In this document: positions 370 to 57,241 of the stretch, piece after piece
Numbering within the stretch: position 1 is the first letter of the stretch
How the letters are laid out: every line of letters begins with the position of its first letter
Translations under genes and position numbers: made by a program
NCBI GenBank assembly: GCA_020630915.1
Contig: JAHDIF010000002.1
Span: forward strand, 331,956 to 395,955
Origin: Dokdonia sp.
GTDB taxonomy: Bacteria; Bacteroidota; Bacteroidia; Flavobacteriales; Flavobacteriaceae
DNA length: 64,000 nucleotides
Reading direction: 5' to 3'
The notes under the pieces: generated by a model
Databases searched by the model: none
Seen by the model: only the letters and a program-made list of their open reading frames with translations
What the model was told of the DNA's origin: nothing

Positions 370-1178
370 TTCCACCAAACTACAAAAAACTTATCTAAAC
401 TACCATCAGGCATTTTACGCCATAGCATAGGCGCATTTTTGTTAATGTGACGCACGTTTACATCCATAAGAATATTAAAATGTGATTGCCAGTCTACTTG
501 ATTATGGGGTAGATGTAACCATTCATACTTGTGGGGTATGTAGTATACGCTTTCGCGAAAGCTAGCATCCTCAAAATCGCTCATATACATCCAGCTGCCT
601 ACAATACATTGCTTGTTAAGAGGTCTAATTGATGGGACTTCTTGTGTAAGGGGCACAAAAAGCTGTCCCACAAAATACACTTGCTGGATTACTTCACGTG
701 GATCAATTTGTAATTCTTGTAAGTAGGGAAGACACTCCTTTGTATGTAAAAGCGGCAGCTGTTTATTTTTAGTCTTTTCTAGCTTAGTAAAAAACATATC
801 CTTACGGTTAGGACCCATCAAACGGTGTATAGGCTCTGATATGGATGGATCTATAATGTAGAATTTACAGCTTAACTCTATGTGGTAAATTGCCTTTTTG
901 TATTCTAAAAGAAAATCTAATTCTCCTACGGTGGTATTTCCTATTTTGACTTGTATACTATGAGCGAGTATGTTATACTCGGGATGCTGTTTGAGTAATT
1001 CTAGAAATATATATTCTACTTGATGCCCAAGTCTAAGGTTCGTAGGAATAGGCGATGGAGAAAAGTTTGAGAGGTCAAAATCAGGAAATGCAAATTGTTG
1101 TATACTAAATTGCTCCTGTTTCCAGAGCGGTTGTGTTTTTACAAATCCTTTATACGACCTCACGTTGTAAAAATACAA
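366..1178 (-). CDS. DUF1853 family protein (PD-(D/E)XK nuclease-like fold)
   Basis: This 270-aa protein matches the DUF1853 family as I know it: an RLGHQVEYIFLELL segment, then VGELDFLLEY and a downstream HIELSCKFYII. The spaced acidic residues and the ExxxK element resemble a PD-(D/E)XK nuclease core, but no activity is established. The first codon used here is TTG; a GTG at 1163 is an alternative start. The gene is coupled by ATGA to the membrane gene that follows. A copy of the GCTTTCGCGAAAGC palindrome lies in frame and encodes SFRES near residue 208. Confidence 0.75.
   Translation of the reverse strand: MYFYNVRSYKGFVKTQPLWKQEQFSIQQFAFPDFDLSNFSPSPIPTNLRLGHQVEYIFLELLKQHPEYNILAHSIQVKIGNTTVGELDFLLEYKKAIYHIELSCKFYIIDPSISEPIHRLMGPNRKDMFFTKLEKTKNKQLPLLHTKECLPYLQELQIDPREVIQQVYFVGQLFVPLTQEVPSIRPLNKQCIVGSWMYMSDFEDASFRESVYYIPHKYEWLHLPHNQVDWQSHFNILMDVNVRHINKNAPMLWRKMPDGSLDKFFVVWWK
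549..562. repeat. Dispersed palindrome GCTTTCGCGAAAGC (copy 1, exact)
   Basis: Perfect 14-bp palindrome inside the DUF1853 gene, read as SFRES on the minus strand. It is one of 14 exact copies in the window. Confidence 0.95.
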
Positions 1179-1205
1179 AAGGCCATCGTATGGATGACCT
1201 TTTGT
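1175..1205 (-). terminator. Possible terminator between the 143-aa membrane gene and DUF1853
   Basis: ACAAAAGG and CCTTTTGT arms flank a CATC/GATG inner stem with one C-A mismatch and a 5-nt loop. It sits just downstream of the stop at 1225 and overlaps the putative TTG start of the next gene. That makes it a weak terminator, or argues for the later GTG start of DUF1853. Confidence 0.4.
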
Positions 1206-1224
1206 GTATGTTATAAAAACCGAT

Positions 1225-1656
1225 TTATCCTAACCAGCCTTTCTTTATACAGTTTCCAGCGTACCAAATTAGAAATATACCAATTAGTACAACAAGTACA
1301 GGCATAACGGCTGCACCAGGTCCATAAATATCTAAAGCACCACTGATAAAAAGGTTATATACCATTTGAAATACAATTCCTACTAGTGATATTATAAACA
1401 CGGGCTTGGCCCATTTCTTTTTCAACAATAAGCCAATACACCCAAGCAGTCCAAACCATACTGCAAGTGCAAAGGCAATATGATACCACATAGGTGTATT
1501 GCTTATGATGTCTTGTTCTGCTTGAGACATGGCCGCAATTGTTTCTTCAGACATTAATTTTTGGCCCATATAGGCGCCAACTCCAGCTAGGTTCCATAAT
1601 AAGGCTACAATAGAAATAACCCAAAAAAGTGCGTTTGGTTTGTTGGTCGTTGTCAT
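1225..1656 (-). CDS. Four-helix membrane protein, tandem paralogue B
   Basis: The 143-aa protein has four predicted membrane helices (about residues 11-29, 55-79, 84-104 and 113-131) and a short basic tail. It begins MTTTNKP, as does its neighbour upstream, and the two align over their whole length with conserved aromatic and glycine positions. They are clearly a tandem duplication. I do not recognise a characterised family; related proteins are often called hypothetical or sugar-transporter-like without experimental support. Confidence 0.75.
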   Translation of the reverse strand: MTTTNKPNALFWVISIVALLWNLAGVGAYMGQKLMSEETIAAMSQAEQDIISNTPMWYHIAFALAVWFGLLGCIGLLLKKKWAKPVFIISLVGIVFQMVYNLFISGALDIYGPGAAVMPVLVVLIGIFLIWYAGNCIKKGWLG

Positions 1657-1699
1657 TTTGTTTGGTTTTAAAGTTGTTTATTTAATAGTGAGTTTAAAG

Positions 1700-2131
1700 T
1701 TAGTGAAGCCACTCTTTTCTTGCAGCACCTTTAGAATAGAAGTATAGGAAGACGCATATAATAATTACCATTATAGGTCCAAAATATACTTGTGATCCCA
1801 TTACTTCTGGAGCATTTGTGCCAAAAAGCCAGTATGCCTGTGTTAGTATAGCCGCAATTAATGATATAAAAAATAACATTACAGTTATTTTCTTGCGCAT
1901 AAGCATCGTAATGCATCCTAGCACTCCTGTTATAGTAGCAATTCCAAAAACGATCAGATACCAAGAAGGCATTCCGGTAAAAAGTTCAGCTTGGTCTGGA
2001 GGATAATTGTCTATTAGCCAATCTTTCATAAAGATCGTAGCTAAAAAATTGGCAAGGCCCATAATATTCCAAATAAGGGCACATACTGCAATCACCCAGA
2101 AAAGGGTTTTTGGTTTGTTAGTCGTTGTCAT
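1700..2131 (-). CDS. Four-helix membrane protein, tandem paralogue A
   Basis: This 143-aa protein has the same length and four-helix layout as the next gene and shares the MTTTNKP start, LFWVI in helix 1 and a conserved GVLGCI/GLLGCI motif opening helix 3. The DNA before both start codons is nearly identical for about 25 bases (TTTTAAAGTTGTTTA within it, read on the plus strand), so the duplicated unit included the leader. The function is unknown. Confidence 0.75.
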   Translation of the reverse strand: MTTTNKPKTLFWVIAVCALIWNIMGLANFLATIFMKDWLIDNYPPDQAELFTGMPSWYLIVFGIATITGVLGCITMLMRKKITVMLFFISLIAAILTQAYWLFGTNAPEVMGSQVYFGPIMVIIICVFLYFYSKGAARKEWLH

Positions 2132-2182
2132 TTTGTTAGGTTTTAAAGTTGTTTAATACATCAATGTACATATTTTTGTGGA

Positions 2183-2962
2183 ATGTTTGATAAACGTTAC
2201 TATTACTTGCTCAAAATCCAGTATCTGGGTTTTAGGTTTCACGGCTGGCAGGAGCAGCCTGATGTTCTTACCGTTGAGCGTATGATGAAGCGCACATTTG
2301 CCTACGTATTACAGCATAAAAACTTTAAGTTACTAGCTTCTGGAAGGACCGATGCAAAAGTATCTGCAAATGCACTATATGTAGAGCTATTTCTCAATGA
2401 TGCGCCCTTGCCTGAAGAAGGATTTCTTGAGCTGCTTAATACCAATCTACCGCAGGATATACGCTGTTTATCTATTACCGAAGTAGACAAGCAGTTTAAT
2501 GTAATGGATGCGCCCAAAGAAAAGGAGTATCTGTATCTGTTCTCACACGGACAAAAAAATCATCCATTTGCAGCTCCATATATGGTAGCGATTGCTCAAG
2601 ATCTGGATATCCCTTTAATGCAAGAAGCGGCACAACTCTTTGAAGGTACCCACGATTTTAGAACCTATGCATATAAGCCTAACCCTGAGACTAAAACTAT
2701 CGGAACGATCACAACGTCTGAGATTGTTTTGAATGAATTGTATACCGCTAATTTTTTTCCAGAGGCGAGTTATATATTTCGCGTAAGCGGTAAAGGATTT
2801 AAAAGGCACCAGATTCGATTAATGATGGGGGCACTTTTTGATGTAGGTACTCATAAATTCGATATTGATTTTATAAAAAAAACTTTAGTTCCTGATAATG
2901 GGATTAAATTGGAACACATTGCCCAGGCCAGCGGTCTTATCCTGCACGAGGTTACATTATAA
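2183..2962 (+). CDS. truA: TruA-like tRNA pseudouridine synthase, divergent active site
   Basis: The 259-aa protein has the TruA fold signature: YLGFRFHGWQEQP near the N-terminus (residues 14-26), the catalytic aspartate D57 in SGRTDAKVSA and a C-terminal FRVSGKGFKRHQIRLMMG. TruA isomerises uridines 38-40 in tRNA anticodon arms. Most bacterial TruA proteins carry GRTD-x-GVHA; here the positions after Asp are AKVSA, so the conserved G and H are lost. It could be a second, specialised TruA-type enzyme rather than the housekeeping copy. It is followed after about 30 bp by DUF2461. Confidence 0.75.
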   Translation: MFDKRYYYLLKIQYLGFRFHGWQEQPDVLTVERMMKRTFAYVLQHKNFKLLASGRTDAKVSANALYVELFLNDAPLPEEGFLELLNTNLPQDIRCLSITEVDKQFNVMDAPKEKEYLYLFSHGQKNHPFAAPYMVAIAQDLDIPLMQEAAQLFEGTHDFRTYAYKPNPETKTIGTITTSEIVLNELYTANFFPEASYIFRVSGKGFKRHQIRLMMGALFDVGTHKFDIDFIKKTLVPDNGIKLEHIAQASGLILHEVTL

Positions 2963-2992
2963 GTAGTATCTTTAAATGACTCAAGTATTTGT

Positions 2993-3676
2993 ATGAACAG
3001 TATTCCAAAATCGTCATTTGATTTTTTAAAAAAACTCGCGAAAAATAATCATCGTGACTGGATGACAGAGCACAAGAAGGAGTATCAGTCAAGTGAGCAA
3101 GCTCTAAAAGCCTTTTATGCCGCTATAGTGGACGGTCTTAATGAAACTGATGAGATAGAAAAACTCAAAGTTTTTAGAATTAATCGAGACATACGTTTTA
3201 GTAAAGATAAAACGCCCTATAACGTACATCGTAGCGCCAGTTTTAGTAGGGCAGGAGCGCATAGAAGAGGTGGGTATTATTTACGATTGGAGCCTGGAAA
3301 TAAATCTGTAGTAGCAGGTGGATTCTTTAATCCAGAGCATAAAGATTTAAAGCGCATTCGCACAGAGTTTCAGATGGATGCGAGCGAAATACGTGATATT
3401 CTATCTGAGCCCGCTTTCGCGAAAGCGTACGGAGGCAAATTTACACCACGCGACTCCGTTAAAACAGCACCCAAAGGCTTTGATAAAGAAGACCCAAATA
3501 TCGATTTAATCCGGCTTAAAAACTTTTTTGTGACGCATTCATTTACCGATGAAGAAGTATTTGCGCCAGACTTTAGTCAAAAAGTATTGAAACACTATAA
3601 ATTGCTGCGACCTTTTTTTGATTATATGAGTGATGTACTCACTACCGATCTCAATGGAGAATCTCTTATTGATTAG
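2993..3676 (+). CDS. DUF2461 family protein
   Basis: The 227-aa protein has the DUF2461 (TIGR02453) pattern: an N-terminal FDFLKKLAKNNHRDWMTEH, then RDIRFSKDKTPYN and SRAGAHRRGGYYLRLEPG, and a late KGFDKEDPNIDLIRLKNF. No biochemical role is established for the family. It lies close behind the TruA-like gene, so cotranscription is likely. Residues AFAKA near position 142 are encoded by a GCTTTCGCGAAAGC palindrome. Confidence 0.85.
   Translation: MNSIPKSSFDFLKKLAKNNHRDWMTEHKKEYQSSEQALKAFYAAIVDGLNETDEIEKLKVFRINRDIRFSKDKTPYNVHRSASFSRAGAHRRGGYYLRLEPGNKSVVAGGFFNPEHKDLKRIRTEFQMDASEIRDILSEPAFAKAYGGKFTPRDSVKTAPKGFDKEDPNIDLIRLKNFFVTHSFTDEEVFAPDFSQKVLKHYKLLRPFFDYMSDVLTTDLNGESLID
3413..3426. repeat. Dispersed palindrome (copy 2, exact)
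   Basis: Exact GCTTTCGCGAAAGC inside the DUF2461 gene, read in frame as AFAKA. Confidence 0.95.
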
Positions 3677-3679
3677 ATG

Positions 3680-3826
3680 TTAAGGGTTTCTTTTGCGTTT
3701 TCTAATGATTAGGTAGGTCACTATCAATAGTATGGGTAATGCGATAAATACAAATAACTCAACAGGTGATGATGGGTCAATCGGACTGTTGTTACTGGGT
3801 TTGGGCACCTCTGTAGAGATTTGCAT
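3680..3826 (-). CDS. 48-aa single-helix membrane peptide
   Basis: A short open frame starts at an ATG overlapping the stop of the upstream 139-aa gene (TAATG, one base shared), the arrangement expected for translational coupling. The product begins MQISTEVPKPSNNSP, then has one hydrophobic segment (about residues 23-41) and ends in a basic IRKRKRNP. The polar proline-rich start, helix and positive tail suggest a small inner-membrane peptide with its C-terminus inside. The coupling and composition support a real gene; no function can be assigned. Confidence 0.55.
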   Translation of the reverse strand: MQISTEVPKPSNNSPIDPSSPVELFVFIALPILLIVTYLIIRKRKRNP

Positions 3827-4245: not shown

Positions 4246-4283
4246 AACTTCGAGGTTTTTTAAATCTACAAATGAATTAGTAT

Positions 4284-4297
4284 GCTTTTGCGAAAGC
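4284..4297. repeat. Dispersed palindrome (one mismatch)
   Basis: GCTTTTGCGAAAGC differs from the consensus at one base. It lies in the promoter region of the 139-aa gene. Confidence 0.8.
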
Positions 4298-8431: not shown

Positions 8432-9331
8432 ATGAAATTTGGACAAGTAGATAATCCGGAGCTTATTGATTTTACATTGCCTAAGGATCATCCCGATACA
8501 ATTGGTATGCTTTCGCGAAAGCGCACTAAACAGCAAAAAAATCTAAATGTGCATGTGGGCTGTGCAAAATGGAACAGGCAAGACCTCAAAAATTTTTATC
8601 CAAGAGGCACAAAAGATGAGTTGCAGTACTATGCCTCACAGTTTAATAGCATAGAGCTTAATGCCACCTTTTATAGACTGTTTCCTAAGGAACAATATCA
8701 AAAGTGGTATGAAAAAGCTCCAGATGGTTTTAAGTTTTTTCCAAAAATCACTAATAATATTAGCCATCTAAAACGACTTATAGACTCTGAACAGTATATT
8801 CCAGAATATTTGGATCACACTTTATTACTAAAAGAAAAGCTCGGGACCATTTTTTTACAAATGCATAATAATTTCCATCCTAAGAATTTTGATAGGGTAG
8901 ATAATTTTGTGAATAATTGGCCTAGTGAAGTACCTATTGCTCTAGAATTTAGACATACCGGTTGGTTTAACGATCCGGCTGTTGCTGAAAGACTATTTCA
9001 CTTACTAGAAGAAAACAATATAGCGAATGTTCTTGTAGATACTGCTGGGAGAAGAGATATTATGCATATGCGGCTTACCAATAATGAGGCTTTTATTCGT
9101 TTTGTAGGCGCAAACGATCCAAGTGATTATGCAAGATTAGATGATTGGGTCTTAAGGCTTAAGAAATGGGTGGATCAAGGACTTACGAATATTCATTTCT
9201 TTATACATCAAAATGTAGAGCTTGCCTCTCCATTATTGTCCGCTTACTTTATTAATAAATTGAACCCTGTACTAGGTACTCATCTTAAAGTGCCTCAAAC
9301 TTTGGTTCAGCCAGATCCAACACTATTTTAA
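8432..9331 (+). CDS. DUF72 family protein (YecE-like)
   Basis: The 299-aa protein carries DUF72 hallmarks: NVHVGCAKW near residue 40, YYASQFNSIELNATFYRL, FKFFPKITNNISH and a central EVPIALEFRHTGWF. The fold is a TIM barrel; no reaction is known. Its stop overlaps the ATG of the next gene as TAATG, so it is coupled to the gluconokinase/6-phosphogluconate dehydrogenase fusion and may be linked to gluconate use. The N-terminal 36 residues before the conserved core include LSRKR encoded by a palindrome copy. Confidence 0.85.
   Translation: MKFGQVDNPELIDFTLPKDHPDTIGMLSRKRTKQQKNLNVHVGCAKWNRQDLKNFYPRGTKDELQYYASQFNSIELNATFYRLFPKEQYQKWYEKAPDGFKFFPKITNNISHLKRLIDSEQYIPEYLDHTLLLKEKLGTIFLQMHNNFHPKNFDRVDNFVNNWPSEVPIALEFRHTGWFNDPAVAERLFHLLEENNIANVLVDTAGRRDIMHMRLTNNEAFIRFVGANDPSDYARLDDWVLRLKKWVDQGLTNIHFFIHQNVELASPLLSAYFINKLNPVLGTHLKVPQTLVQPDPTLF
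8509..8522. repeat. Dispersed palindrome (copy 3, exact)
   Basis: Exact GCTTTCGCGAAAGC in the N-terminal extension of the DUF72 gene, read as LSRK. Confidence 0.95.
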
Positions 9332-11211
9332 TGGGAGTTGTTTATATAGTTATGGGAGTTTCTGGTGTAGGTAAAACTACTATAGGAAAATTACTTGCAA
9401 CTGAATTGGGAGTACCATTTTTTGATGCAGATGATTATCATCCAGAAAGTAATAAAAATAAAATGGCGAGCGGCATTCCTTTACAGGATGCCGATAGATG
9501 GCCTTGGTTAAAGTTGCTATCACAGAATATTACAGAATGGAGTAATGATGGCGCAGTGCTAGCTTGTTCTGCGTTGAAAGAATCCTACAGAGAAATTCTA
9601 GAAGCTGGCGGAGATGTTAAATTTGTTTTTTTAGAAGGTTCTCAAGAAGACATAGCAAATCGACTTGCGGCCCGAAAGGATCATTTTTTTGATCCTACTT
9701 TATTGCAATCTCAGTTTGACACCTTAGAAAAGCCTAAAAATGCCATTGTGGTAAATGCTAAAAATAAACCTGAAGTTATAGTTAGAGAAGTTATGTCTAA
9801 AGAAAACACAAAAAGTGAATTAGGACTGATAGGTCTAGGTGTTATGGGCAAGAGCCTAGCTCGCAATTTTGCAACTAAAGGGATCAAGATGTCTCTGTAT
9901 AATAGACATGTTGCTGGCAAAGAAGAAAAGGTTGCTAGCAAGTTTGTGGACCAATATAAAGAACTTGAAGATAGTAATGGATACGATGATTTAGAAGCAT
10001 TTGTAAACTCTCTAGCCATACCACGAAAGATTTTCATTATGGTGAATGCTGGTCCAGCGATAGATGCAGTTATTAGATCTCTCGTACCTCATTTATCTGA
10101 AGGAGATGTTCTTATGGATGGAGGGAATAGCCATTATAAAAACACGCAAGATCGTTTTGAGTTACTAAAGGACAAAGGGATTCATTTTCTAGGAGTAGGA
10201 GTTTCTGGAGGTGAGAAAGGTGCTCTTGAAGGGCCTTCTATTATGCCTGGAGGTAGTAAAGAAGGGTATGAACTAGTAGGTGCTTATCTTGAACGCATTG
10301 CAGCAAGAGATAAGAACAAAGATGCCTGTTGTACTCGATTGGGTGATGGTGGTTCTGGTCATTTTGTAAAAATGATTCATAATGGGATCGAATATGCAGA
10401 GATGCAGCTTATTGCAGAGGTATACGATGTTTTAAAGACCAATTTACAACTTGATAATAGTACTATTTCAAATTATTTTAAAGATTGGAATCAAGGAGCG
10501 TTAGAAAGCTACTTATTAGAGATTTCTGGACATATACTCACAAAAAAGGAAGGTGATGTCTTTTTAATAGATGTAATTTTAGATAAGGCCAAACAAAAAG
10601 GAACGGGAGGATGGAGCACGACGGCCGCTTTAGAAATTGGTACCTCTTTAGATACAATCTCACAGGCCGTGATGACACGTATTGTATCTGGTTATAAAGA
10701 AGAGAGAACAAGAGCAGAGGAAATGTATACGCTTTCGCGAAAACATACTACACTTCTTTCTATTGAGACTATTAAAAAGGCCTATAAGGTAGCGCGTATT
10801 ATTAATCATTGCATTGGTATGGAAGCCCTACGTAAAGCATCTCAAGAGTATAATTGGGATCTCAATCTTTCGGAAATCACGAGAATATGGACAAATGGTT
10901 GCATCATACGTTCCCGGTTTATGGAAACTTTAGGGGCTATTTTGACTACTAGTTCTGACTCTTTATTTCTTTCAAATGATATAAGGATAGCGATTCAAGC
11001 GGGGCTTGATGACTTGATCTCATTTCAAGCGGAGACCTTAAAATCAGGTATGGCAACACCTGTTTTTAGTGCAGCCACTAATTATATATTGGCATTTACT
11101 AGAGGCGAGTCTTCAGCTAATATGATACAGGCGCAGAGAGATTATTTTGGTGCTCATACCTATGAGCGCAAAGATAAAACCGGAAGCTTTCACACTAATT
11201 GGGAAGATTAA
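9331..11211 (+). CDS. gntK-gnd: Bifunctional gluconokinase / 6-phosphogluconate dehydrogenase fusion
   Basis: The 626-aa protein joins two enzymes. Residues 1-155 are a gluconokinase with Walker A GVSGVGKTT (9-17) and FFDADDYHPESN. From about 163 a complete 6-phosphogluconate dehydrogenase follows: the NADP-binding GLIGLGVMG (about 165-173), MDGGNSHY, GVGVSGGEKGALEGPSIMPGG, the catalytic-site HFVKMIHNGIEYAEMQ and KGTGGWSTTAALEIG. It would phosphorylate gluconate to 6-phosphogluconate and decarboxylate it oxidatively to ribulose-5-phosphate, bypassing the Entner-Doudoroff route. It is coupled to DUF72 upstream and followed after 15 bp by a gluconate permease. A palindrome variant encodes LSRK in a variable region of the dehydrogenase part. 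Confidence 0.93.
   Translation: MGVVYIVMGVSGVGKTTIGKLLATELGVPFFDADDYHPESNKNKMASGIPLQDADRWPWLKLLSQNITEWSNDGAVLACSALKESYREILEAGGDVKFVFLEGSQEDIANRLAARKDHFFDPTLLQSQFDTLEKPKNAIVVNAKNKPEVIVREVMSKENTKSELGLIGLGVMGKSLARNFATKGIKMSLYNRHVAGKEEKVASKFVDQYKELEDSNGYDDLEAFVNSLAIPRKIFIMVNAGPAIDAVIRSLVPHLSEGDVLMDGGNSHYKNTQDRFELLKDKGIHFLGVGVSGGEKGALEGPSIMPGGSKEGYELVGAYLERIAARDKNKDACCTRLGDGGSGHFVKMIHNGIEYAEMQLIAEVYDVLKTNLQLDNSTISNYFKDWNQGALESYLLEISGHILTKKEGDVFLIDVILDKAKQKGTGGWSTTAALEIGTSLDTISQAVMTRIVSGYKEERTRAEEMYTLSRKHTTLLSIETIKKAYKVARIINHCIGMEALRKASQEYNWDLNLSEITRIWTNGCIIRSRFMETLGAILTTSSDSLFLSNDIRIAIQAGLDDLISFQAETLKSGMATPVFSAATNYILAFTRGESSANMIQAQRDYFGAHTYERKDKTGSFHTNWED
10731..10744. repeat. Dispersed palindrome (one mismatch)
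   Basis: GCTTTCGCGAAAAC inside the dehydrogenase part of the fusion gene, read as LSRK. Confidence 0.8.
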
Positions 11212-11226: not shown

Positions 11227-12573
11227 TTGGATATACAATTACTGCTTTCAGTCTTTTTAGGAATAAGTGTCTTGCTATTTCTCATTCTACGCTTAAAGAT
11301 ACAAGCCTTTCTTGCGCTACTTATAACGTGTATTGTTGTAGGCGTAACGGCAGGTATGGAGCCTTCTTTATTGCTCAAAAGTATTAAGAATGGAATGGGA
11401 GGTACACTAGGTTTTGTGGCTACCGTTGTTGGGTTAGGAGCTTTATTTGGTGCAATCTTAGAACGATCTGGAGGAGCACAGATGCTCGCAAACTCTTTAT
11501 TAAAAGCCTTTGGAATAGCAAAAGCGCCTTGGGCCGTGATGCTTACAGGTTTTTTAGTGGCCATACCTGTGTTTTTTGATGTTGCCTTTATCATCTTAGT
11601 TCCTTTAATATATGCATTGCAAAAACAAACGAAGAAGTCTTTGTTATTGTATGCGATACCTTTACTAGCCGGATTAGCTATCACGCATACATTTATACCA
11701 CCTACGCCTGGACCAATTGCAGTGGCCGAAATTTTAGGAGCAGATTTGGGGTATGTAATCATCTTTGGATTTATAGCTGGCTTACCCGCTGCAATTATAG
11801 CAGGACCTATGCTGGCAAAAAGATTGTCGAAAAGAATACATGTAGATACTCCAGAAGAAATGACAACAGTGATGGAAGTTCCTGAAAACGCTCCAAGTGC
11901 AGTTCAGATACTTGCAATTATTGCCATTCCCATTGTACTTATTGTTTTTAATACGGTTCTTGGCAGCCCGTTATTTCAAGATGGAGCTTTACCAGATTGG
12001 ATGCTTTATCTTTCTGGTTTGTTGGGCCACCCCTTCGTAGCGCTTATCATAGCCAATATTGTGGCTTGGTACTTCTTAGGTATTCGTAAAGGGTTTAAAA
12101 AAGATCAACTTTTAGAAATTTCAACAAAATCGTTATATCCTGCAGGTGTCATCATTTTGTTAACGGGAGCTGGTGGTGCTTTCAAGCAGGTACTTATTGA
12201 CACAGGAGCAGGAAAAATGATTGCAGAAAGTTTGAGTAGCGATTATTTTCCTCCTGTGATTTTTGGTTTCGTTGTGGCGGCTATCGTACGTATTTTACAG
12301 GGATCTGCCACGGTAGCAATGATTACCGCAGCCGGTATTGCATCTCCTATGCTCAGTATTGCAAACACGAGTGCTCCACAGCTCGCAGTACTTGTAATTG
12401 CAATAGCCTCTGGAGCTACGATTTTCTCACACGTAAATGACAGCGGTTTCTGGCTCGTAAAGCAATACTTGGGCTTAACAGAAAAACAGACCTTTACCTC
12501 TTGGACGGTAATGACCAGTTTGATTGCTCTCGTTGGATTAGTGGTTTCTACAATGCTATGGTATGTGGTATAA
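11227..12573 (+). CDS. gntP: GntP family gluconate:H+ symporter
   Basis: The 448-aa protein has about 12 hydrophobic segments and GntP-family signatures: GFLVAIPVFFDVAFIILVPL near residue 120, HTFIPPTPGPIAVAEILGADLG near 155 and LTGAGGAFKQVLIDTGAG near 310. GntP permeases import gluconate. Placement 15 bp after the kinase/dehydrogenase fusion supports this substrate. The frame opens with TTG at 11227; no ATG occurs before the first helix, so a TTG start is likely. A palindrome variant begins five bases after its stop. Confidence 0.9.
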   Translation: MDIQLLLSVFLGISVLLFLILRLKIQAFLALLITCIVVGVTAGMEPSLLLKSIKNGMGGTLGFVATVVGLGALFGAILERSGGAQMLANSLLKAFGIAKAPWAVMLTGFLVAIPVFFDVAFIILVPLIYALQKQTKKSLLLYAIPLLAGLAITHTFIPPTPGPIAVAEILGADLGYVIIFGFIAGLPAAIIAGPMLAKRLSKRIHVDTPEEMTTVMEVPENAPSAVQILAIIAIPIVLIVFNTVLGSPLFQDGALPDWMLYLSGLLGHPFVALIIANIVAWYFLGIRKGFKKDQLLEISTKSLYPAGVIILLTGAGGAFKQVLIDTGAGKMIAESLSSDYFPPVIFGFVVAAIVRILQGSATVAMITAAGIASPMLSIANTSAPQLAVLVIAIASGATIFSHVNDSGFWLVKQYLGLTEKQTFTSWTVMTSLIALVGLVVSTMLWYVV

Positions 12574-12577: not shown

Positions 12578-12591
12578 GCTTTCGCGAAAGT
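12578..12591. repeat. Dispersed palindrome (one mismatch)
   Basis: GCTTTCGCGAAAGT lies just after the gntP stop. It has no loop and no T-run, so it is not a typical terminator. Confidence 0.8.
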
Positions 12592-14234: not shown

Positions 14235-14248
14235 GCTTTCGCGAAAGC
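14235..14248. repeat. Dispersed palindrome (copy 4, exact)
   Basis: Exact GCTTTCGCGAAAGC in the 244-bp gap upstream of the metalloprotease. I see nothing else recognisable in that gap. Confidence 0.95.
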
Positions 14249-17471: not shown

Positions 17472-17485
17472 GCTTTCGCGAAAGC
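17472..17485. repeat. Dispersed palindrome (copy 5, exact)
   Basis: Exact core; the symmetry extends outwards to TACGCTTTCGCGAAAGCGTA (17469-17488). It lies between the divergent vanX-like and rlmI genes. Confidence 0.95.
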
Positions 17486-22277: not shown

Positions 22278-22291
22278 GCTTTCGCGAAAGC
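22278..22291. repeat. Dispersed palindrome (copy 6, exact)
   Basis: Exact GCTTTCGCGAAAGC between the divergent VWA gene and the next secreted protein. Confidence 0.95.
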
Positions 22292-25371: not shown

Positions 25372-25385
25372 GCTTTCGCGAAAGC
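25372..25385. repeat. Dispersed palindrome (copy 7, exact)
   Basis: Exact core with symmetry extended to GTACGCTTTCGCGAAAGCGTAT, lying 23 bp before the ABC transporter start. Confidence 0.95.
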
Positions 25386-27161: not shown

Positions 27162-27794
27162 TTAAATAACGTGAGACAAGCTTTGTACCTCTCTAGGATT
27201 CATATCATTTAAATAAGTTGATCCTACTCGTACTCTTACGAGTCGTAAAGTAGGAAACCCAACAGCAGACGTCATTTTCCGTACTTGTCTGAACTTACCT
27301 TCTTTAATAATAAGACGTATCCAAGATGTTGGGCCATGGCGTGCATCTCGCAGCTTTTTTCCTCTATCTGGAAAGTGAGGAGCTTGTAGTACTTGGTAAA
27401 CTTCACAGGGTTTTGTTGTATATTTTTTGCCGTCAAAACCTATTTCTATTCCCTCGCTAAGTTTCTTAATTGCTTCAGGAGTGATTGTGCCATCTAGCTG
27501 TGCGTAGTATTCTTTTTCAATACCAGATCTGTTAATAGTATCACTTAATTTCCCGTCTGTAGTAAGTAACAGCAATCCCTCAGATTTTTCGTCTAGACGT
27601 CCTACAGGCATCGTTCCATCTGGAAAATCATAAAGTTCAGAAAGAAACTTCTTTTTTCGTAATTGCCTAGCATCGTTGGATGACAGTTGGCTTATCATTC
27701 CGTAGGGCTTGTATATTTTAAAGTGATAGTGATTCACGCGGCTAAAATAGGTAGAAGTGCGCTTTCGCGAAAGCGTATTTACATTACCTTTCAT
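27162..27794 (-). CDS. rluE: RluE/RsuA-family pseudouridine synthase
   Basis: The protein has the small-subunit-type synthase core: FKIYKPYGMISQ, the catalytic aspartate D68 in PVGRLDEKSEGLLLLTTDG, and KEGKFRQVRKMTSAVGFPTLRLVRVRVG. There is no S4 domain, as expected of RluE, which modifies U2457 of 23S rRNA. The annotated ATG at 27794 makes a 20-residue leader partly encoded by a palindrome; a GTG at 27737 (VNHYHFKIYKPYG) fits the family start better. In that case the palindrome is intergenic. Confidence 0.85.
   Translation of the reverse strand: MKGNVNTLSRKRTSTYFSRVNHYHFKIYKPYGMISQLSSNDARQLRKKKFLSELYDFPDGTMPVGRLDEKSEGLLLLTTDGKLSDTINRSGIEKEYYAQLDGTITPEAIKKLSEGIEIGFDGKKYTTKPCEVYQVLQAPHFPDRGKKLRDARHGPTSWIRLIIKEGKFRQVRKMTSAVGFPTLRLVRVRVGSTYLNDMNPREVQSLSHVI
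27761..27774. repeat. Dispersed palindrome (copy 8, exact)
   Basis: Exact core, read as LSRK if the longer RluE start is used, or intergenic between divergent genes if the GTG start is right. Confidence 0.95.
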
Positions 27795-30883: not shown

Positions 30884-30897
30884 GCTTTCGCGAAAGC
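30884..30897. repeat. Dispersed palindrome (copy 9, exact)
   Basis: Exact core with symmetry extended to TATGCTTTCGCGAAAGCATA (30881-30900), between divergent genes. Confidence 0.95.
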
Positions 30898-33528: not shown

Positions 33529-33542
33529 GCTTTCGCGAAAGC
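33529..33542. repeat. Dispersed palindrome (copy 10, exact)
   Basis: Exact core with symmetry extended to TTACGCTTTCGCGAAAGCGTAA, 20 bp after the oxidoreductase stop. Confidence 0.95.
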
Positions 33543-37388: not shown

Positions 37389-39689
37389 ATGACCCGATTT
37401 TTTCTTGTATTCTGTCTCTTAATTATTTGTATATCCTGTAACGAAACCCTTGAAACCACAGGAACAGTTGTGGATAATGAGGACCAATTAAAAGCAGCCA
37501 TAAAAGATGCGGAGCCTGGAGATCATATTATTCTTAAAAATGGTACTTGGAAGGATATTGCTATAGAGTTCTATGCTCAAGGGACAGATAAAAAGACTAT
37601 AGTACTTGAAGCAGAAACTCCTGGAAGTGTAATTCTAGAAGGAAATTCTTCTCTTAAATTGGGAGGATCTCATTTAGAAGTAAGTGGCTTGCATTTTAAA
37701 AATGGATATACAACAGAAAATGCTGTTATACGCTTTAAAGTAGATAATAACAAAATCGCTTATCACTCGCGTGTTACAAATTGTGTTATAGAAGACTTTA
37801 CAAATCCTGATCGAGATAGTAAAAACCATTGGATAGAGTTGTGGGGGCAGCATAATACATTCGATCGAAATTATGTTACAGGAAAAACGAATCAAGGACC
37901 AACACTACGCGTGTTTTTAAAGGGTAATGAAAATGTAAATACCTACCACCAGATTAAAGACAATCATTTTGGGCCACGTCCTAGAAAAGGAGGCCCAAGG
38001 GCCGAAACGATGCAAATAGGTGATAGTTATACGTCTATGACGCCTGGTTATGTAAATGTGATGCACAATTATTTTGAACGATGCAACGGTGAAGTAGAGA
38101 TTATTTCTAGTAAGTCTAACTATAACACTTTTAAAAATAACGTGTTTTTTGAGTCAGAAGGATCGCTCGTATTGCGTCACGGTAATTATGCTACTATAGA
38201 CGGAAATGTATTTATAGGTAATGATAATTCAGAATTTATAGGAGGAATACGTGTTATCAATACAGGACATTGGATTACTAATAACTATTTCTATAATTTA
38301 AAAGGGAATGAATTTCGAGCACCGCTTGCCGTTATGAACGGAATCCCAAAATCACCCCTCAATCGCTATAATCAAGTAACTGATGTGGTAGTAGCGTACA
38401 ACTCATTTATAAACACCCAGACTCCTTGGCACTTTGGAGTAGGAGCAAATTTAAGTCAAGCAGAAGTCTTGCCGCCATCAGAAATCCGATCTGCGAGAGC
38501 AGAGCGAATGATAGTTGCTAATAATTTACTGTATACAGATAAAGCTTTCGCGAAAGCGATTAAAACATACGATTCTATTACAGGCGTAACATTTAAAAAT
38601 AATATTACAAACGTAGAGAATACTAGTGATTACAAAACAGACGGTCTTATAGCCAAAAATGTAAATTTAACGGGTGATGCGGGTATTTTTAGAATGCCTG
38701 GCGCTACAGATTCGGATATCTATAATGGTTTTGATTTTGAAAAATTAGATAAGGACATCTTTGGATCTGCACGCGATGGTCAAAATAGTGTAGGTGCAAT
38801 TGTGGCCCTTCCAGATAGTGTGAAGAAATTGCTAGATAGATCAGCATATGGTACCTCTTGGTTTGACACAAACCCACCTCAACAGGAAAACAACACCTTA
38901 ACTGTTTCTACTACAGATGAACTTAAAAAGGCCATTTCTACAAGTAATAATGGTGATGTAATAAACATCCAGCCGGGCACTTACAATATTACAGAATCGT
39001 ATTCTTTTGATAAGGTAATTACACTACAAGCAGCAACAAATGAAAGACCACTACTCGTTTTTTCGAGTGTGCCAAAAGCTTTTGAAATACGACCGAAATC
39101 GAAACTTAAACTTTATAATATTAGTCTAAAAGGAACGACTCAAACAGATGCTTTTGCCACATTGGATAAAAATATGGGACAGTCGTACGAACTATGGTTG
39201 GATAATGTAGAGATAGATGGTTTTAAGAGCGTTCTAGAAACCAGTAAAGCTTCATTTGCAGATACTATATCTATAAAAAATAGCCTAGTTAAAAATACAA
39301 TACGTGGGATACAGCTTAATAAAGAGATTAACGATAAAGGAGATTACAATGCTGCCTTTGTTTTTATTGAAGATTCAGAATTTAAAAACGTTGGAATGAA
39401 TGTACTAGACTATTATCGTGGCGGTTATGATGAGTCTACAATAGGAGGTAGTCTAGTTTTAGAAAGAAATACGTTTTCAAACTGCGGCGCGCAGGAAAAA
39501 ACAAACATATTGCTTAAAACAAGAGGTATAGTAAATGTAACTCTGGCGAATAATGAGTTTAGAAACAATCAGGTAAAAACCATTGCGGTTTTATGGGGTG
39601 AAAAAGGTCAAAAACCAGTAGATAATAAGGTGGTTAATTCTGGTGAAATAAAAGTGGTTCAAAATTTAAAACTAAAATTAGTTTACTAG
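37389..39689 (+). CDS. Two-domain PL6 alginate lyase lipoprotein (AlyGC-like)
   Basis: The 766-aa protein has a lipoprotein signal ending CISC. Residues about 25-490 form the PL6 catalytic beta-helix: NGEVEIISSKS carries calcium ligands and catalytic lysine, and SLVLRHGNYATIDGNVF the arginine. Residues about 500-766 form a second parallel beta-helix, the layout of the exolytic AlyGC from Glaciecola. An exolytic role releasing unsaturated monomer is therefore likely. It heads an operon with two PL7 lyases, a transporter, an SDR and KdgF. A palindrome encodes AFAKA at the surface of the catalytic domain. Confidence 0.92.
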   Translation: MTRFFLVFCLLIICISCNETLETTGTVVDNEDQLKAAIKDAEPGDHIILKNGTWKDIAIEFYAQGTDKKTIVLEAETPGSVILEGNSSLKLGGSHLEVSGLHFKNGYTTENAVIRFKVDNNKIAYHSRVTNCVIEDFTNPDRDSKNHWIELWGQHNTFDRNYVTGKTNQGPTLRVFLKGNENVNTYHQIKDNHFGPRPRKGGPRAETMQIGDSYTSMTPGYVNVMHNYFERCNGEVEIISSKSNYNTFKNNVFFESEGSLVLRHGNYATIDGNVFIGNDNSEFIGGIRVINTGHWITNNYFYNLKGNEFRAPLAVMNGIPKSPLNRYNQVTDVVVAYNSFINTQTPWHFGVGANLSQAEVLPPSEIRSARAERMIVANNLLYTDKAFAKAIKTYDSITGVTFKNNITNVENTSDYKTDGLIAKNVNLTGDAGIFRMPGATDSDIYNGFDFEKLDKDIFGSARDGQNSVGAIVALPDSVKKLLDRSAYGTSWFDTNPPQQENNTLTVSTTDELKKAISTSNNGDVINIQPGTYNITESYSFDKVITLQAATNERPLLVFSSVPKAFEIRPKSKLKLYNISLKGTTQTDAFATLDKNMGQSYELWLDNVEIDGFKSVLETSKASFADTISIKNSLVKNTIRGIQLNKEINDKGDYNAAFVFIEDSEFKNVGMNVLDYYRGGYDESTIGGSLVLERNTFSNCGAQEKTNILLKTRGIVNVTLANNEFRNNQVKTIAVLWGEKGQKPVDNKVVNSGEIKVVQNLKLKLVY
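38544..38557. repeat. Dispersed palindrome (copy 11, exact)
   Basis: Exact core inside the second PL6 gene, read as AFAKA. Confidence 0.95.
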
Positions 39690-40798: not shown

Positions 40799-40812
40799 GC
40801 TTTCGCGAAAGC
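40799..40812. repeat. Dispersed palindrome (copy 12, exact)
   Basis: Exact core with symmetry to TTACGCTTTCGCGAAAGCGTAA. Its right edge touches the ATG of the Nramp-like gene, so the element overlaps that gene's ribosome binding site. Confidence 0.95.
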
Positions 40813-49433: not shown

Positions 49434-49615
49434 GATTACATTTTACGTCTCTTGATGAATCTGAATTTAGACCTTTGGTAGACATAAGAATATAGTTAGA
49501 ATTAACGACGGTTCTGTTAGCTGGGTTGCATAGAAGTGATGAAGATCTAAGAAAAAAGTTAGAGGTACTAGACGCTTATACTGATACTTCATATATCGCT
49601 TTCGCGAAAGCATAA
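49434..49615 (+). pseudogene. Remnant of a second gntR (FadR-type) regulator gene
   Basis: Translation in pieces gives DYILR, then after a 2-bp insertion LDESEFRPLVDIRI, a TAG stop (49493-49495) and LELTTVLLAGLHRSDEDLR. This aligns with about 60 percent identity to residues 91-140 of the intact regulator at 56509. The frame then fuses with the palindrome that follows the intact gene. The missing part corresponds to a 287-bp deletion between TATATAGATA repeats still present in the intact gene (56920-56929 and 57207-57216). DNA similarity continues to about 49690. Confidence 0.88.
49598..49611. repeat. Dispersed palindrome (copy 13, exact)
   Basis: Exact core at the end of the gntR remnant, in the same position relative to gntR as copy 14 behind the intact gene. 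Both are followed by CATAAACTC. Confidence 0.95.
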
Positions 49616-54528: not shown

Positions 54529-54547
54529 GAAAATTAAAATTATAATT

Positions 54548-55513
54548 ATGAAATCATTTAAAATTTTAGTCGTTGCGATTTTAGCAATCTTTACAGCTTT
54601 TATTTCTTGTGAAAATGAGTATGAACTGCCAGAAGAGGGATCTATTGCAGATCTTACACCTCCTTCCGCAAGTTTCATTTTTGTTGGAGGTGAGTTGATT
54701 GAGGACTTTACACAAGTTCAATTTACAAATTTCTCTACTGGTGCAACCAGTTATAACTGGGATTTTGGGGATGGTACATCAACAACAGACTTTGAGCCAA
54801 CTCACGTCTATCCGGGAGAAGGCACTTATACGGTTACACTGGACATATCTGATGACTTAGGTGCCGAAAGCTCTTTTTCACAAACTTTTGACCTTATCAT
54901 GCCAGAAGAGCCAGATGTTCCTAACCCTGTATTGATTAATGCAGATTTTGACAAAATTCCTAAGTCGTCTGGATCAGATTGTTCTTGTTCTGGTTGGATA
55001 AATAAGGATATTGGTGAGCAAGGTGAGTCTAGTTCTGGTAATGGCGGTAGTGATAATGTTGTTAAATTTGATAATGCAGAACCAGATCACGTATATCAAG
55101 AATTTGCTGTCGTACCTAATGCAGATTATGCAATACAAATGCCCGTAGGGTTCCAATCACTTCAAGGCGGTATGGCTCCAAGTTCATTAGAGATTAGAGT
55201 ATTAGCAGGATCAGGTTATATAGATGGATATACACCTATTTATTACCAAGAGGCAGTTGATATGCCACAAGAAGATTGGGGTTATACAACGGTAGAACAG
55301 GTAGAAAATCCTGACAATAATCTTCTGGTAGATGTAATTGACAACCCGGGAACTACCGATTATTTGACATATTCCTTTACTTTCAACTCTGGAAATAATG
55401 ATAGTGTTGCGCTATTTATAAGAGGAATAGGAGGAGCAAACACTGGAGAATTTGGATACAATAGTGGTGATGAGGAGATTAGAGCAGATTTTGTAAGTAT
55501 TATTGCTAACTAG
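54548..55513 (+). CDS. PKD-domain surface lipoprotein, likely glycan-binding
   Basis: The 321-aa lipoprotein (FISC, then ENEYELPEEG) has one PKD domain at about residues 35-122 with YNWDFGDGTSTTDFEPTHVYPGEGTYTVTL. A beta-sandwich-like C-terminal region (about 125-321) resembles carbohydrate-binding modules but matches no family I can name. Its place after susD is where SusE/F-type accessory glycan-binding proteins are encoded, so alginate binding at the surface is a reasonable inference. Confidence 0.75.
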   Translation: MKSFKILVVAILAIFTAFISCENEYELPEEGSIADLTPPSASFIFVGGELIEDFTQVQFTNFSTGATSYNWDFGDGTSTTDFEPTHVYPGEGTYTVTLDISDDLGAESSFSQTFDLIMPEEPDVPNPVLINADFDKIPKSSGSDCSCSGWINKDIGEQGESSSGNGGSDNVVKFDNAEPDHVYQEFAVVPNADYAIQMPVGFQSLQGGMAPSSLEIRVLAGSGYIDGYTPIYYQEAVDMPQEDWGYTTVEQVENPDNNLLVDVIDNPGTTDYLTYSFTFNSGNNDSVALFIRGIGGANTGEFGYNSGDEEIRADFVSIIAN

Positions 55514-55519
55514 ACTTTA

Positions 55520-56422
55520 ATGAATTATAAGTTAGGCCTTATTCTATTTTTTCTTTGCTTGTTTAGTGGGTATTCATTAGAGGCTCAATCTAGTATGGAC
55601 ATCGCTGATAAGGAGAAACCTAAACGGGTAAAGAAAAAAAAGAAGAAAAAATATAAATTACCAGATATAGACCTAACACATTGGAAGGTTACGACTCCTG
55701 CGGGTGATGGAAAAAAGCCAGTAGAAGTTTCTCCTCCAGAAATATTTGACTATGCTACAGATGAGAGGTTAATACCTTATATGTATAATGATTCGTCTAA
55801 AGGAGCTCTTGTATTTTATGCATATCCTAGTAAAGCAACAACAAGGAATACGAAATATTCAAGATCGGAGCTAAGAGAGCAGATGGAGCCTGGTAACAAT
55901 AGTGTTAATTGGACTTTTAAGGAAGGGGGCTATTTAAAGGTAAAAATGGCTATGGACAAGGTCTCAAAAGATGCTAATGGTAAACCCCATAGAGTTATTA
56001 TTACACAAATACATGGCAGATTGACTAATGAACAGCGAGATCTAATAGGCGAAGATGATAATAACGCCCCTCCAATGCTCAAAATTTATTGGCAAGACGG
56101 AAAAATACGAGTCAAAACAAAGATTTTAAAAAATCTCAGTGCCGGTTCAGAAGATATTTTGCACGAAGACGCTTGGGATGATGATAAAGGGTTTAATTTT
56201 GAACAAAAAGTGGGTTACCAAAAATTTACCTTAGAAGTTAAAATTTCTGATGGAGAAATGGTTATCGTACTTAACAAAAATGAATACAAGGTTTATAAGG
56301 GTATTCATATTCAAAAATGGGGAGTTTTTGAAAATTATTTTAAAGTGGGTAACTATTTACAAACCCGTGACGAAGGAGCTTTTGCTAAGGTAAGAGTATA
56401 TGATATTGAAGTTAGTCACTAA
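55520..56422 (+). CDS. Alginate lyase, PL7, secreted form
   Basis: The 300-aa protein has a standard signal peptide (MNYKLGLILFFLCLFSGYSLEAQ) and no lipobox. A lysine-rich linker (KRVKKKKKKKYK) precedes the PL7 domain, which carries SRSELREQM, ITQIHGR and YFKVGNYLQ. It lacks a T9SS tail, so it is probably periplasmic, acting on oligomers imported by SusCD. It differs clearly from the two lipoprotein PL7 paralogues. Confidence 0.92.
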   Translation: MNYKLGLILFFLCLFSGYSLEAQSSMDIADKEKPKRVKKKKKKKYKLPDIDLTHWKVTTPAGDGKKPVEVSPPEIFDYATDERLIPYMYNDSSKGALVFYAYPSKATTRNTKYSRSELREQMEPGNNSVNWTFKEGGYLKVKMAMDKVSKDANGKPHRVIITQIHGRLTNEQRDLIGEDDNNAPPMLKIYWQDGKIRVKTKILKNLSAGSEDILHEDAWDDDKGFNFEQKVGYQKFTLEVKISDGEMVIVLNKNEYKVYKGIHIQKWGVFENYFKVGNYLQTRDEGAFAKVRVYDIEVSH

Positions 56423-56508
56423 GTATACTTGCAGTCTAGAATGTTGAAATTATTTTATAACTTAACATTCGAGAGCAATAATTATTAAAGTATCTAAAAT
56501 TGGAATGT

Positions 56509-57213
56509 ATGAAATTAGAAACACGTAGTAAAATAGCAGAGCACACATCAGTAGAGAAGGTAATTATTGGACAAATACGTGATATCATAAATTTAAAAAA
56601 TTTGGAACCTGGTGATAAACTCCCTTCAGAAAGAATGCTTTCAGAAAAATTTGATGTTCCCAGAAGTAGTATCCGTCAGGCCATACAGAAATTAGAGCAT
56701 TATGGTATTCTAAATTCCATTCCCCAAAGTGGGACTTTTGTCGCACAAATAGGTGTGATTGCTATTAATGGAATGATTGATGACATTTTGCGTCTTGATG
56801 AACCTGATTTTAAATCTCTGGTAGAAACAAGAATATTGTTAGAGTTAAAGACCGTTCGGCTAGCTGCATTGCGCAGAACAGATGAAAATCTAAGAGAAAT
56901 GCAAGTGGCCTTAGATGCATATATAGATAAGGTTCTTAGTGGAGAAGATGCAATGCAAGAAGATTTACTCTTCCATTTGGCAATAGCCAAAGCATCGGGC
57001 AATACTACAATGAATAATTTTATGTTGATCATTACGCCAGAAATTATAACCAATTTTGAAAAATATCATGTATGTGATCCAGATATGGCTCAATCAGGTA
57101 TAGAAGAACATCGAAGAATTTACAAAGCAATAGAAGAGCAAAACACCAAGGAAGCCAAAGCAATGATGAAAGAACATTTCAAAGCCTTATATCAATATTG
57201 CTATAATATATAG
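56509..57213 (+). CDS. GntR-family regulator, FadR subfamily (alginate/hexuronate regulator)
   Basis: From the ATG at 56509 (a TTG at 56500 is possible) the protein has 234 aa. The N-terminal winged helix carries LEPGDKLPSERMLSEKFDVPRSSIRQAIQKLEHYGIL, and the C-terminal FCD domain (about 90-230) includes ETRILLELKTVRLAA, DLLFHLAIAKASGN and EEHRRIYKAIEEQN with the metal-binding histidines. It is the likely reader of the TTGGTnAACCAA-type operators, which resemble UxuR/ExuR sites. I see no operator at its own promoter. It lies after the PL7 gene and before the MFS carrier. Confidence 0.88.
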   Translation: MKLETRSKIAEHTSVEKVIIGQIRDIINLKNLEPGDKLPSERMLSEKFDVPRSSIRQAIQKLEHYGILNSIPQSGTFVAQIGVIAINGMIDDILRLDEPDFKSLVETRILLELKTVRLAALRRTDENLREMQVALDAYIDKVLSGEDAMQEDLLFHLAIAKASGNTTMNNFMLIITPEIITNFEKYHVCDPDMAQSGIEEHRRIYKAIEEQNTKEAKAMMKEHFKALYQYCYNI

Positions 57214-57227
57214 ATACTTAAAATAAA

Positions 57228-57241
57228 GCTTTCGCGAAAGC
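57228..57241. repeat. Dispersed palindrome (copy 14, exact)
   Basis: Exact core 15 bp after the gntR stop, followed by CATAAACTC as in copy 13. Confidence 0.95.

Follow-up and report, generated by a model that had tools for sequence, protein, structure and literature searches.

The described systems closest to the repeat analyzed here are the uptake sequences of Pasteurellaceae (USS) and Neisseriaceae (DUS), the HIP1 palindrome of cyanobacteria, Chi, and the sites of Noc and ParB (NBS and parS). NBS and parS are palindromes of 14–16 bp with TTTC...GAAA arms, and to our knowledge the known uptake sequences are not palindromic. Temperate phages of Pasteurellaceae carry USS, according to the available part of one report (PMC6776037). 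Riemerella columbina, assigned to Flavobacteriaceae by the authors of another report, is described in its available text as competent and as preferring its own DNA (PMC7965970). Beyond a k-mer table in that text, no report of an uptake sequence in Bacteroidota was found in the literature searched, which was mostly open. Ten papers matched the 14-mer or four related strings, and none was evidently about this repeat; subscription journals lay mostly outside the search.

The window, which is the whole stretch of 64,000 nucleotides of Dokdonia sp. DNA that was analyzed, contains 14 exact copies of the palindrome GCTTTCGCGAAAGC, three one-mismatch copies and no two-mismatch copies. The original prediction had claimed these exact and one-mismatch copies, and each was found exactly where it had been placed. 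Its claim that chance would give far fewer than one copy also held, as 0.08 copies with up to two mismatches were expected in the window from 100 dinucleotide shuffles. No strand is assigned to the copies. Two exact copies, at 3413..3426 and 38544..38557, lie within the plus-strand ORFs 2993-3676 and 37389-39689 and code for AFAKA. The copy at 549..562 is within the minus-strand ORF 366-1163 in the FRES frame. Two others are in the LSRK frame, at 8509..8522 near the start of ORF 8432-9331 (plus strand) and at 27761..27774 near the start of ORF 27162-27794 (minus strand), whose true start is possibly downstream of the copy. The remaining exact copies are intergenic. They lie between co-directional genes (14235..14248), between divergent genes (17472..17485, 22278..22291 and 30884..30897), upstream of a SusC-family gene (49598..49611) and at 25372..25385, 33529..33542, 40799..40812 and 57228..57241. 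The longer symmetry that had been claimed is present at several of them, as TACGC...GCGTA at 17472 and 25372, as TATGC...GCATA at 30884 and as TTACGC...GCGTAA at 33529 and 40799. The one-mismatch copies are at 4284..4297 (GCTTTTGCGAAAGC, intergenic, the aligned G190 stretch having the exact palindrome), at 10731..10744 within the plus-strand ORF 9331-11211, and at 12578..12591, intergenic and directly past the plus-strand ORF 11227-12573.

The genome as a whole (2.97 Mb, 18 contigs) holds 685 exact copies, compared with 0.002–0.04 expected from Markov models of order 0–5, which were trained on contig C10 after removing the sites. GCTTTCGCGAAAGC read backwards was found 0 times in the same 2.97 Mb. 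The original prediction had asked for this count and named two outcomes that would speak against it, a frequency at the Markov level and confinement to the window; given the genome-wide over-representation, neither applies. The dispersed palindrome is therefore confirmed, and its strong genome-wide over-representation as one oligomer is a property of DNA uptake sequences.

Hundreds of copies were found in all 18 genomes examined of the source's genus (g1), in all 23 genomes examined of a second genus (g11) and in a single genome from a third. In the rest of the family sample (391 of 397 genomes) 0–19 copies were counted, and the carrier genera are 3 of the 237 sampled. A gyrA tree grouped g1 and g191 at 84/75 and placed g11 elsewhere; because this tree is weakly resolved, the only claim made is that the repeat is patchily distributed across the family. 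The exact 14-mer was absent from 80 named single loci of other Bacteroidota (1.58 Mb). Among the 77 of these loci longer than 9 kb, two other palindromic words rose above threshold, AAAATATTTT in L125 (7 copies) and GATCCGGATC in L141 (3 copies), both below the level of most 20 kb carrier stretches. In a screen of all decamers across the 76 loci with 12 kb or more, some two dozen passed a weak threshold, and one decamer (in L081) was of carrier strength. Since both screens sampled each genome at one locus, a sparse dialect could have been missed.

About half of the copies are inside ORFs, where all three reading frames are used, and copies are enriched 2–5 fold between genes. In GSIII, the one protein examined, the mean conservation of the site was within the 15% least conserved columns. 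The 5' flank is C-poor and G/T-rich on both strands, within and between genes, with T enriched 5' and A enriched 3' of the palindrome; the skew spans about 20 bp on each side. As a single strand, the palindrome folded into a hairpin with a CGCG loop in all four stretches folded, which corrects the earlier statement that it has no loop. One G242 copy folds into a longer hairpin. An extended cruciform was rejected, as the flanks pair only slightly above composition and at the first few positions. The flank signal is thus mainly one of composition.

Spacing was measured in several genomes. G242 has 61 sites in 260 kb, with a mean spacing of 4.3 kb and a CV of 0.42 compared to 0.98 at random. This evenness exceeds that of all 20,000 random sets, and no strict period was found in G242. 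One-mismatch copies occupy the gaps, with 2 of 17 lying less than 1.2 kb from the nearest exact copy, where 8.4 would be expected. Spacing was also very even in the g11 samples, which could favor a structural role. Copies, both coding and intergenic, are thus spaced more evenly than random, the exception being the CV of the copies listed for G428 (0.92, not different from random, p 0.25). Close neighbors are still rare among those copies (5 under 1 kb, 18.6 expected), and the few very close pairs are 270 and 223 bp apart in G428 and 197 bp apart in G412. Twenty samples of 20 kb from G428 held 3–9 copies each and were more even than random (variance/mean 0.48). Ten of these samples (1.45–2.75 Mb) held 61 copies and the other ten 38 (p 0.027), a split that was picked after seeing the counts.

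Sites were also conserved in place, at 16 of 20 positions between G242 and G010 (31% for control 14-mers) and at 6 of 7 between G242 and G394 (2.8% for controls). One of nine places in the latter pair falls in gapped alignment. G000 and G206 (6.8 kb compared, one site, not conserved) and G000 and G190 (26 kb, five places, none exact in both, four gapped and one differing by one base) are too diverged to be informative on conservation. Among 69 near-copies from seven samples, changes at folded positions 1–7 numbered 22, 8, 3, 2, 16, 14 and 4. This position-specific tolerance is as would be expected of a sequence that is being read.

Two verified phage records, in which terminase, portal and further phage genes are present, hold 7 copies in 37 kb and 4 copies in 31 kb, and transferred gene clusters also carry copies. 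Some mobile, Rhs and giant-ORF stretches are without copies, and site-free stretches of 15–30 kb exist. Among the copies listed for G428 there are four gaps longer than 12 kb, one with an integrase and a relaxase and another with an Rhs gene and an SbcC/RAD50-like gene. The G428 gap L353 holds SecY and the carbamoyl-phosphate synthase small chain, and in gap L351 the single protein scanned had no Pfam match. Both gaps longer than 12 kb among the copies listed for G412 are occupied by giant ORFs (13 and 15 kb). Gaps in the window's own contig also hold core genes (an RF-1-domain protein and FAA hydrolase). In g1 (15 of 18 genomes), copy number did not scale with genome size (slope 32±31 per Mb compared to a mean of 210 per Mb) and copy density fell with it (rho -0.71, p 0.003); in g11 (20 of 23 genomes) the fall was not significant (rho -0.18, p 0.45). 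For density in core compared to acquired DNA, the g1 size trend and the G428 and G412 gaps point one way, whereas the g11 trend, the gaps of the own contig and L353 point the other.

With moderate confidence, the palindrome is best explained as a signal resembling an uptake sequence, palindromic and spread by biased uptake, in Bacteroidota. A natural-transformation receptor, at the surface or in the periplasm, would bind GCTTTCGCGAAAGC together with the G/T-rich 5' flanks, and fragments bearing a site would be taken up and recombined more often. Through this bias the sequence would come to occupy all positions able to tolerate it. A single site per fragment would suffice and a second nearby site would bring no gain, which could account for the regular distances of about 4 kb. 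Since the site is palindromic, a fragment could be recognized in either orientation. A toy model of one site per fragment, with rates set by hand, gave a CV of 0.42–0.48 and a spacing of 3.1–5.5 kb with exponential fragments of mean 3–5 kb. The computations show that the palindrome is over-represented, evenly spaced, conserved in place, gained and lost by substitution, carried by phages and scarce in some acquired regions; the receptor, competence and the uptake bias are inferred. A ComEC domain was found in all 24 genomes examined, carriers and non-carriers alike, and so does not explain the distribution of the repeat. No receptor for the palindrome was found. The regional copy difference in G428 is not predicted by the uptake model.

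The original prediction had offered a protein site, a methylation or uptake signal and a HIP1-like chromosome mark, choosing none. Uptake is favored most by the even spacing, the use of all frames, the turnover through substitution, the copies in phages, the lack of copies in some acquired regions and the hundreds of copies in each genome examined of two genera; a chromosome mark may still apply. As such a chromosome-organizing site, the palindrome would be bound by a dimeric protein about once per 4 kb, compacting, insulating or segregating the nucleoid, with selection setting the spacing. The exclusion of near neighbors, the dyad symmetry with its position-specific tolerance and two-sided flank skew, and the even but regionally different counts in G428 suggest this role. 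However, a ruler would not be expected to leave 15–30 kb free of sites or to lack a significant rise in copy number with genome size in g1. Phages and transferred gene clusters carrying the repeat also count against this role, which we consider unlikely. Each of 18 genomes, of which 7 carry the repeat and 11 do not, gave a single ParB_N-domain match, so a Noc-like paralogue from the ParB family does not explain the repeat, although a very divergent one may exist. A palindromic Chi-like site, at which a helicase-nuclease would pause from either side and the flanks would favor RecA loading, is more doubtful. One site per 4 kb or so is near the density of Chi in E. coli, the flanks have the same skew on both strands in and between genes, phages carry copies, and one site per broken end could give even spacing, which the toy model fits equally well. 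Known Chi is nevertheless short, oriented and non-palindromic, an exact site of 14 bp is unusually long, and hundreds of copies occur in just three of the 237 genera in the family sample.

Maintenance of a HIP1-like palindrome by DNA methyltransferases or repair around its center (TCGCGA or CGCG) is improbable. Longer versions of the repeat are still palindromic, as is the case for HIP1 according to Elhai (PMC4390886), and among single changes in the near-copies C to T at folded position 6 ranks second (11 of 69). However, T to C at position 5, which lies outside CpG, is found equally often (14 of 69), and the core is not enriched alone, 30 of 135 TCGCGA lying outside TTTCGCGAAA in C10. A mobile repeat of the REP/MITE type, copied to new places, would be dispersed in several hundred copies as seen here, but this reading is already contradicted by the data and has very little probability. 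About half of the copies are in ORFs and in three frames, though 14 is not a multiple of 3, and copies repel one another. Aligned positions of G242 and G010 without the exact word differed by substitutions in 4 of 4 cases and never by a 14-bp gap. Neither the insertion origin nor the mainly intergenic location of REP/MITE was found. Equally remote is an intrinsic terminator or promoter element, despite the hairpin potential and the intergenic enrichment. T lies 5' and A 3', the reverse of a terminator, which has a T-run 3' of its hairpin and sits at gene ends; with about half of the copies in genes, this bears out the earlier statement that the palindrome is not a terminator. Orientation preference among co-directional, divergent and convergent gaps was inconsistent across G000, G206 and G242, and the window had no Rfam match at gathering scores, which also sets aside a known RNA family.

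If the uptake signal is real, it would be the first self-recognition tag for transformation in Bacteroidota, judging by the literature searched; it would favor gene exchange within genera and be a simple marker for DNA that has passed through these hosts. More tentatively, it may be a DNA uptake sequence that has no precedent in Bacteroidota and is the first to be palindromic, a genus-fixed tag with fragment-length spacing that phages have adopted and that could trace gene transfer in other genera. A chromosome ruler, if true, would act as a site-specific organizer of unusual density and regularity. On either reading, even spacing and hundreds of exact copies make function directly testable.

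Compared to NBS and parS, the repeat differs in arm spacing, has hundreds of copies and has no extra ParB_N protein. It resembles Chi in density and G/T-rich context, but is a perfect, longer palindrome that is free of orientation, whereas Chi is an oriented site. The comparison with HIP1 as a highly iterated palindrome holds, including the palindromic longer versions (PMC4390886, available text). The two differ in sequence (GCGATCGC in HIP1), length (14 compared to 8 bp), phylum and the unenriched core, and the repeat studied here is evenly spaced; the best named relatives of a marker protein were Bacteroidota, mostly Flavobacteriaceae. Unlike USS and DUS, which occur about once per 1–1.5 kb in Proteobacteria, the repeat is a perfect 14-bp palindrome with symmetric flanks, very few close pairs and about one copy per 4–9 kb in Bacteroidota. 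It shares with them hundreds of exact copies, many in ORFs, over-even spacing and over-represented near-copies and, with USS, accumulation in temperate phages, as far as the available text on USS goes (PMC1939737, PMC6776037). That text also gives USS as denser in core than in accessory genes, where our own data are mixed. Common to at least three genera of one family and to some phages, the palindrome behaves like, and appears to resemble, the tags by which DNA of one's own kind is recognized.

The original prediction placed 14 exact and three one-mismatch copies of the 14-bp palindrome in the window (positions 549–57,241), and all were found at their predicted coordinates. The proposed excess over a Markov background also held genome-wide, with 685 copies in the 2.97 Mb of the source genome (G000), where low-order models predict 0.002–0.04; the pattern read backwards does not occur in this genome. 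The window spans positions 331,956–395,955 of contig C10 of G000. Over the full 409 kb of this contig, exact copies number 89, one-mismatch copies 17, and two-mismatch copies 21, compared to averages of 0, 0.03, and 0.9, respectively, for scrambled palindromes of equal composition.

At least one copy was observed in 80 of 397 genomes of the family Flavobacteriaceae, and hundreds were observed in only six, from the source genus g1 (G000, 685; G206, 857) and the genera g11 (G010, 578; G242, 664; G394, 609) and g191 (G190, 408). The remaining 74 copy-bearing family genomes hold 1–19 each. Hundreds of copies were present in all 18 g1 genomes (369–905) and all 23 g11 genomes (288–857) examined, the lowest counts coming from incomplete assemblies. 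A class-level sample contained the palindrome in 11 of 149 genomes, with hundreds in the source genome only, and no copy was found in 80 named loci of other Bacteroidota (1.58 Mb), located using glutamine synthetase III (GSIII) from the source genome as query. In a gyrA tree of 30 genomes, g1 and g191 grouped with moderate support and g11 was placed elsewhere. A Bizionia MAG locus (L081) holds six copies of a different word, the decamer TCAAACAGGA, within 15.7 kb; this may be a repeat internal to a gene or a further iterated word.

Copies of the palindrome avoid one another. Under a null that keeps their intergenic preference, neighbours within 1.2 kb numbered 4 in C10 (21.4 expected), 2 in G206 (11.1), and 0 in 100 kb of G242 (6.4). 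Mean spacing in 260 kb of G242 was 4277 bp with a coefficient of variation (CV) of 0.42, outside 20,000 random sets. No strict period was found in this genome. CVs elsewhere were 0.44 (G394), 0.40 (G010, one interval spanning the join between two contigs), 0.67 (G000), and 0.73 (G206). Among the sites listed for two further carrier genomes, the CV was 0.74 over 100 sites in G412 and 0.92 over 94 sites in G428; the latter is not significant (p = 0.25), the pattern being broken by four gaps of 16–30 kb, and falls to 0.56 once gaps above 12 kb are removed. Intervals shorter than 1 kb were scarce among these sites (G412, 4 compared to 23 expected; G428, 5 compared to 18.6), the closest pairs being isolated cases 197–270 bp apart. 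Twenty 20 kb samples of G428 (contig C4, L359–L378) held 3–9 copies each (variance/mean 0.48); the ten at 1.45–2.75 Mb held 61 and the other ten 38, a contrast (p = 0.027) whose split was picked post hoc. In G190, 14 samples held 0–5 copies each. Near-copies also kept their distance, with 2 of 17 one-mismatch copies (8.4 expected) and 6 of 21 two-mismatch copies (10.4 expected) within 1.2 kb of an exact copy, as if one-mismatch copies fill gaps and stand in for exact ones.

The symmetry extends beyond the 14-mer to CGC...GCG and then to further paired bases that vary by genus. The longer forms TACGC...GCGTA and TATGC...GCATA, noted in the original prediction for several window copies, proved frequent in g1, and each of the 24 copies in a 100 kb stretch of G242 is preceded by C and followed by G, often as TTCC...GGAA. 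On either strand, C is depleted in the 5’ flank 5 to 20 bp out (2–16%, compared to 17–20% at 100–200 bp), where G and T are abundant, inside and between genes alike (G000, G206, and G242); this skew was not clear for the nine copies within the initial 100 kb of G190. Left-right flank pairing is near the level expected from flank composition. Seven samples (1.74 Mb) held 364 exact and 69 one-mismatch copies, whose mismatches fall unevenly on folded positions 1–7 of GCTTTCG (22, 8, 3, 2, 16, 14, and 4). Under neutral decay, positions 3 and 4 should be no better protected than position 5, which suggests that the palindrome is being read.

Sites are held in place between genomes. Between G242 and G010 (approximately 89% DNA identity), 16 of 20 sites are intact, compared to 31% of control 14-mers, and the differences in this closest pair are substitutions: the other four sites carry 1–3 each, and at one of these sites the changes form a symmetric pair. 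G242 and G394 have six sites intact in both (2.8% of control 14-mers identical); the alignment is gapped at one G242 site, and the G242 counterparts of two G394 sites differ at 3 and 8 positions. Between G010 and G394, four sites are intact and three are present in G394 only (control, 3.0%).

Using calls from a home-made gene finder, intergenic copies numbered 39 of 89 in C10 (8 expected), 22 of 44 in G206 (4.5), 14 of 24 in 100 kb of G242 (2.7), and 4 of 9 in the first 100 kb of G190 (0.9). Further or larger samples gave 7 of 21 (G394), 9 of 34 (G190), 52 of 99 (G428), and 33 of 61 (G242, 260 kb), 2.4 to 5 fold above the intergenic share. Pooled with overlaps removed, 162 of 348 copies are intergenic, and no consistent preference was found among convergent, divergent, and co-directional gaps. 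Copies within C10 genes use every frame, encoding AFAKA (27), LSRK (15), or FRES (9). In GSIII (26 of 80 relatives aligned), mean conservation of the AFAKA columns falls within the lowest 15% of columns, although the last AFAKA column is conserved as E in most relatives and is A in the source genome.

Copy number in g1 does not track genome size (slope 32 ± 31 per Mb), and density falls with size (rho = -0.71, p = 0.003; 15 of 18 genomes, three below 88% completeness being dropped). The g11 trend was not significant (rho = -0.18, p = 0.45; 20 of 23 genomes, narrow size range). Four copy-free gaps examined in G428 contain, one set per gap, an Rhs gene with an SbcC/RAD50-like gene; an integrase with a relaxase; large ORFs, the single one scanned having no Pfam match; and SecY with the carbamoyl-phosphate synthase small chain. 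Two copy-free 16.7 kb gaps in G412 (L356–L357, G412:C1:287401-320800) each contain one long ORF, of 13.3 kb in one gap and 15.2 kb in the other. The large gaps of C10 are of mixed content, and within the window two gaps, of 8.8 and 7.6 kb, lie in the SusC and alginate-lyase region (~41–57 kb). A palindrome-free gap of C10 also encodes a protein of 1100 aa that combines a MAC/perforin domain with ankyrin repeats (L030:3324-6626).

Twenty copy-bearing loci from low-copy genomes contain 41 copies. Eight have in common an outer-membrane efflux gene, 74–100% identical to that of L039 (L039:2475-10510), with relatives in several flavobacterial genera (L034, L038, L042, L043, L045, L047, and L051); four of the eight carry two copies 933 bp apart. 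In L039, the sole efflux locus scanned, the adjoining genes encode metal-efflux and multicopper-oxidase proteins. We infer that the low-copy loci are transferred DNA with sites retained, and the palindrome may trace gene transfer out of the carrier genera.

At least 120 IMG/VR stretches contain the palindrome, 109 of the matches listed having a single copy. Fifteen viral records, picked mostly for multiple copies, hold 2–7 each; they are not independent, as G399, G400, G401, and G411 have a common 4480 bp interval and G404 and G408 common positions. PHROGs searches of three of the 15 identified G408 (transposase, terminase, and portal; 7 copies in 37.4 kb) and G411 (terminase, portal, major head, and tape measure; 4 copies in 30.6 kb) as phages; three G397 proteins gave two matches, both to families of unknown function, and none for the third. 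G408 (L323–L324), with the highest count of the 15, has 44% GC and may have a higher-GC carrier such as g191 as its host.

An iterated word used in all frames, evenly spaced, replaced by near-copies, conserved in position, present in phages, and scarce in some acquired DNA favours an uptake-like drive, which we consider the most likely reading, at about even odds. A toy model with one useful site per fragment and rates set by hand gave CVs of 0.42–0.48 and spacing of 3.1–5.5 kb for exponential fragment lengths (mean 3–5 kb), and CVs of 0.23–0.35 for fixed lengths. This model would equally serve a Chi-like function, which we regard as unlikely. A chromosome organiser ranks directly after uptake, as a doubtful but less improbable candidate than Chi. 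Least probable of these four would be a methylation-linked palindrome.

The uptake-like drive would require competence, and ComEC, a necessary but non-specific component, was detected in each of the 24 genomes searched for it. Riemerella is placed in different families by different schemes. The authors of one study place it in Flavobacteriaceae and describe it as competent, with R. columbina preferring its own DNA, and the top decamers examined from their k-mer table are A-rich (PMC7965970). Haemophilus uptake sequences are reported to accumulate in temperate phages and to be denser in core genes (PMC6776037). They are also described as evenly spaced, with 65% in ORFs, and as spaced less evenly than would be expected of compaction sites (PMC1939737). 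The palindrome resembles the Haemophilus uptake sequences in its even spacing, its copies within ORFs, its presence in phages, and a possible scarcity in some acquired regions.
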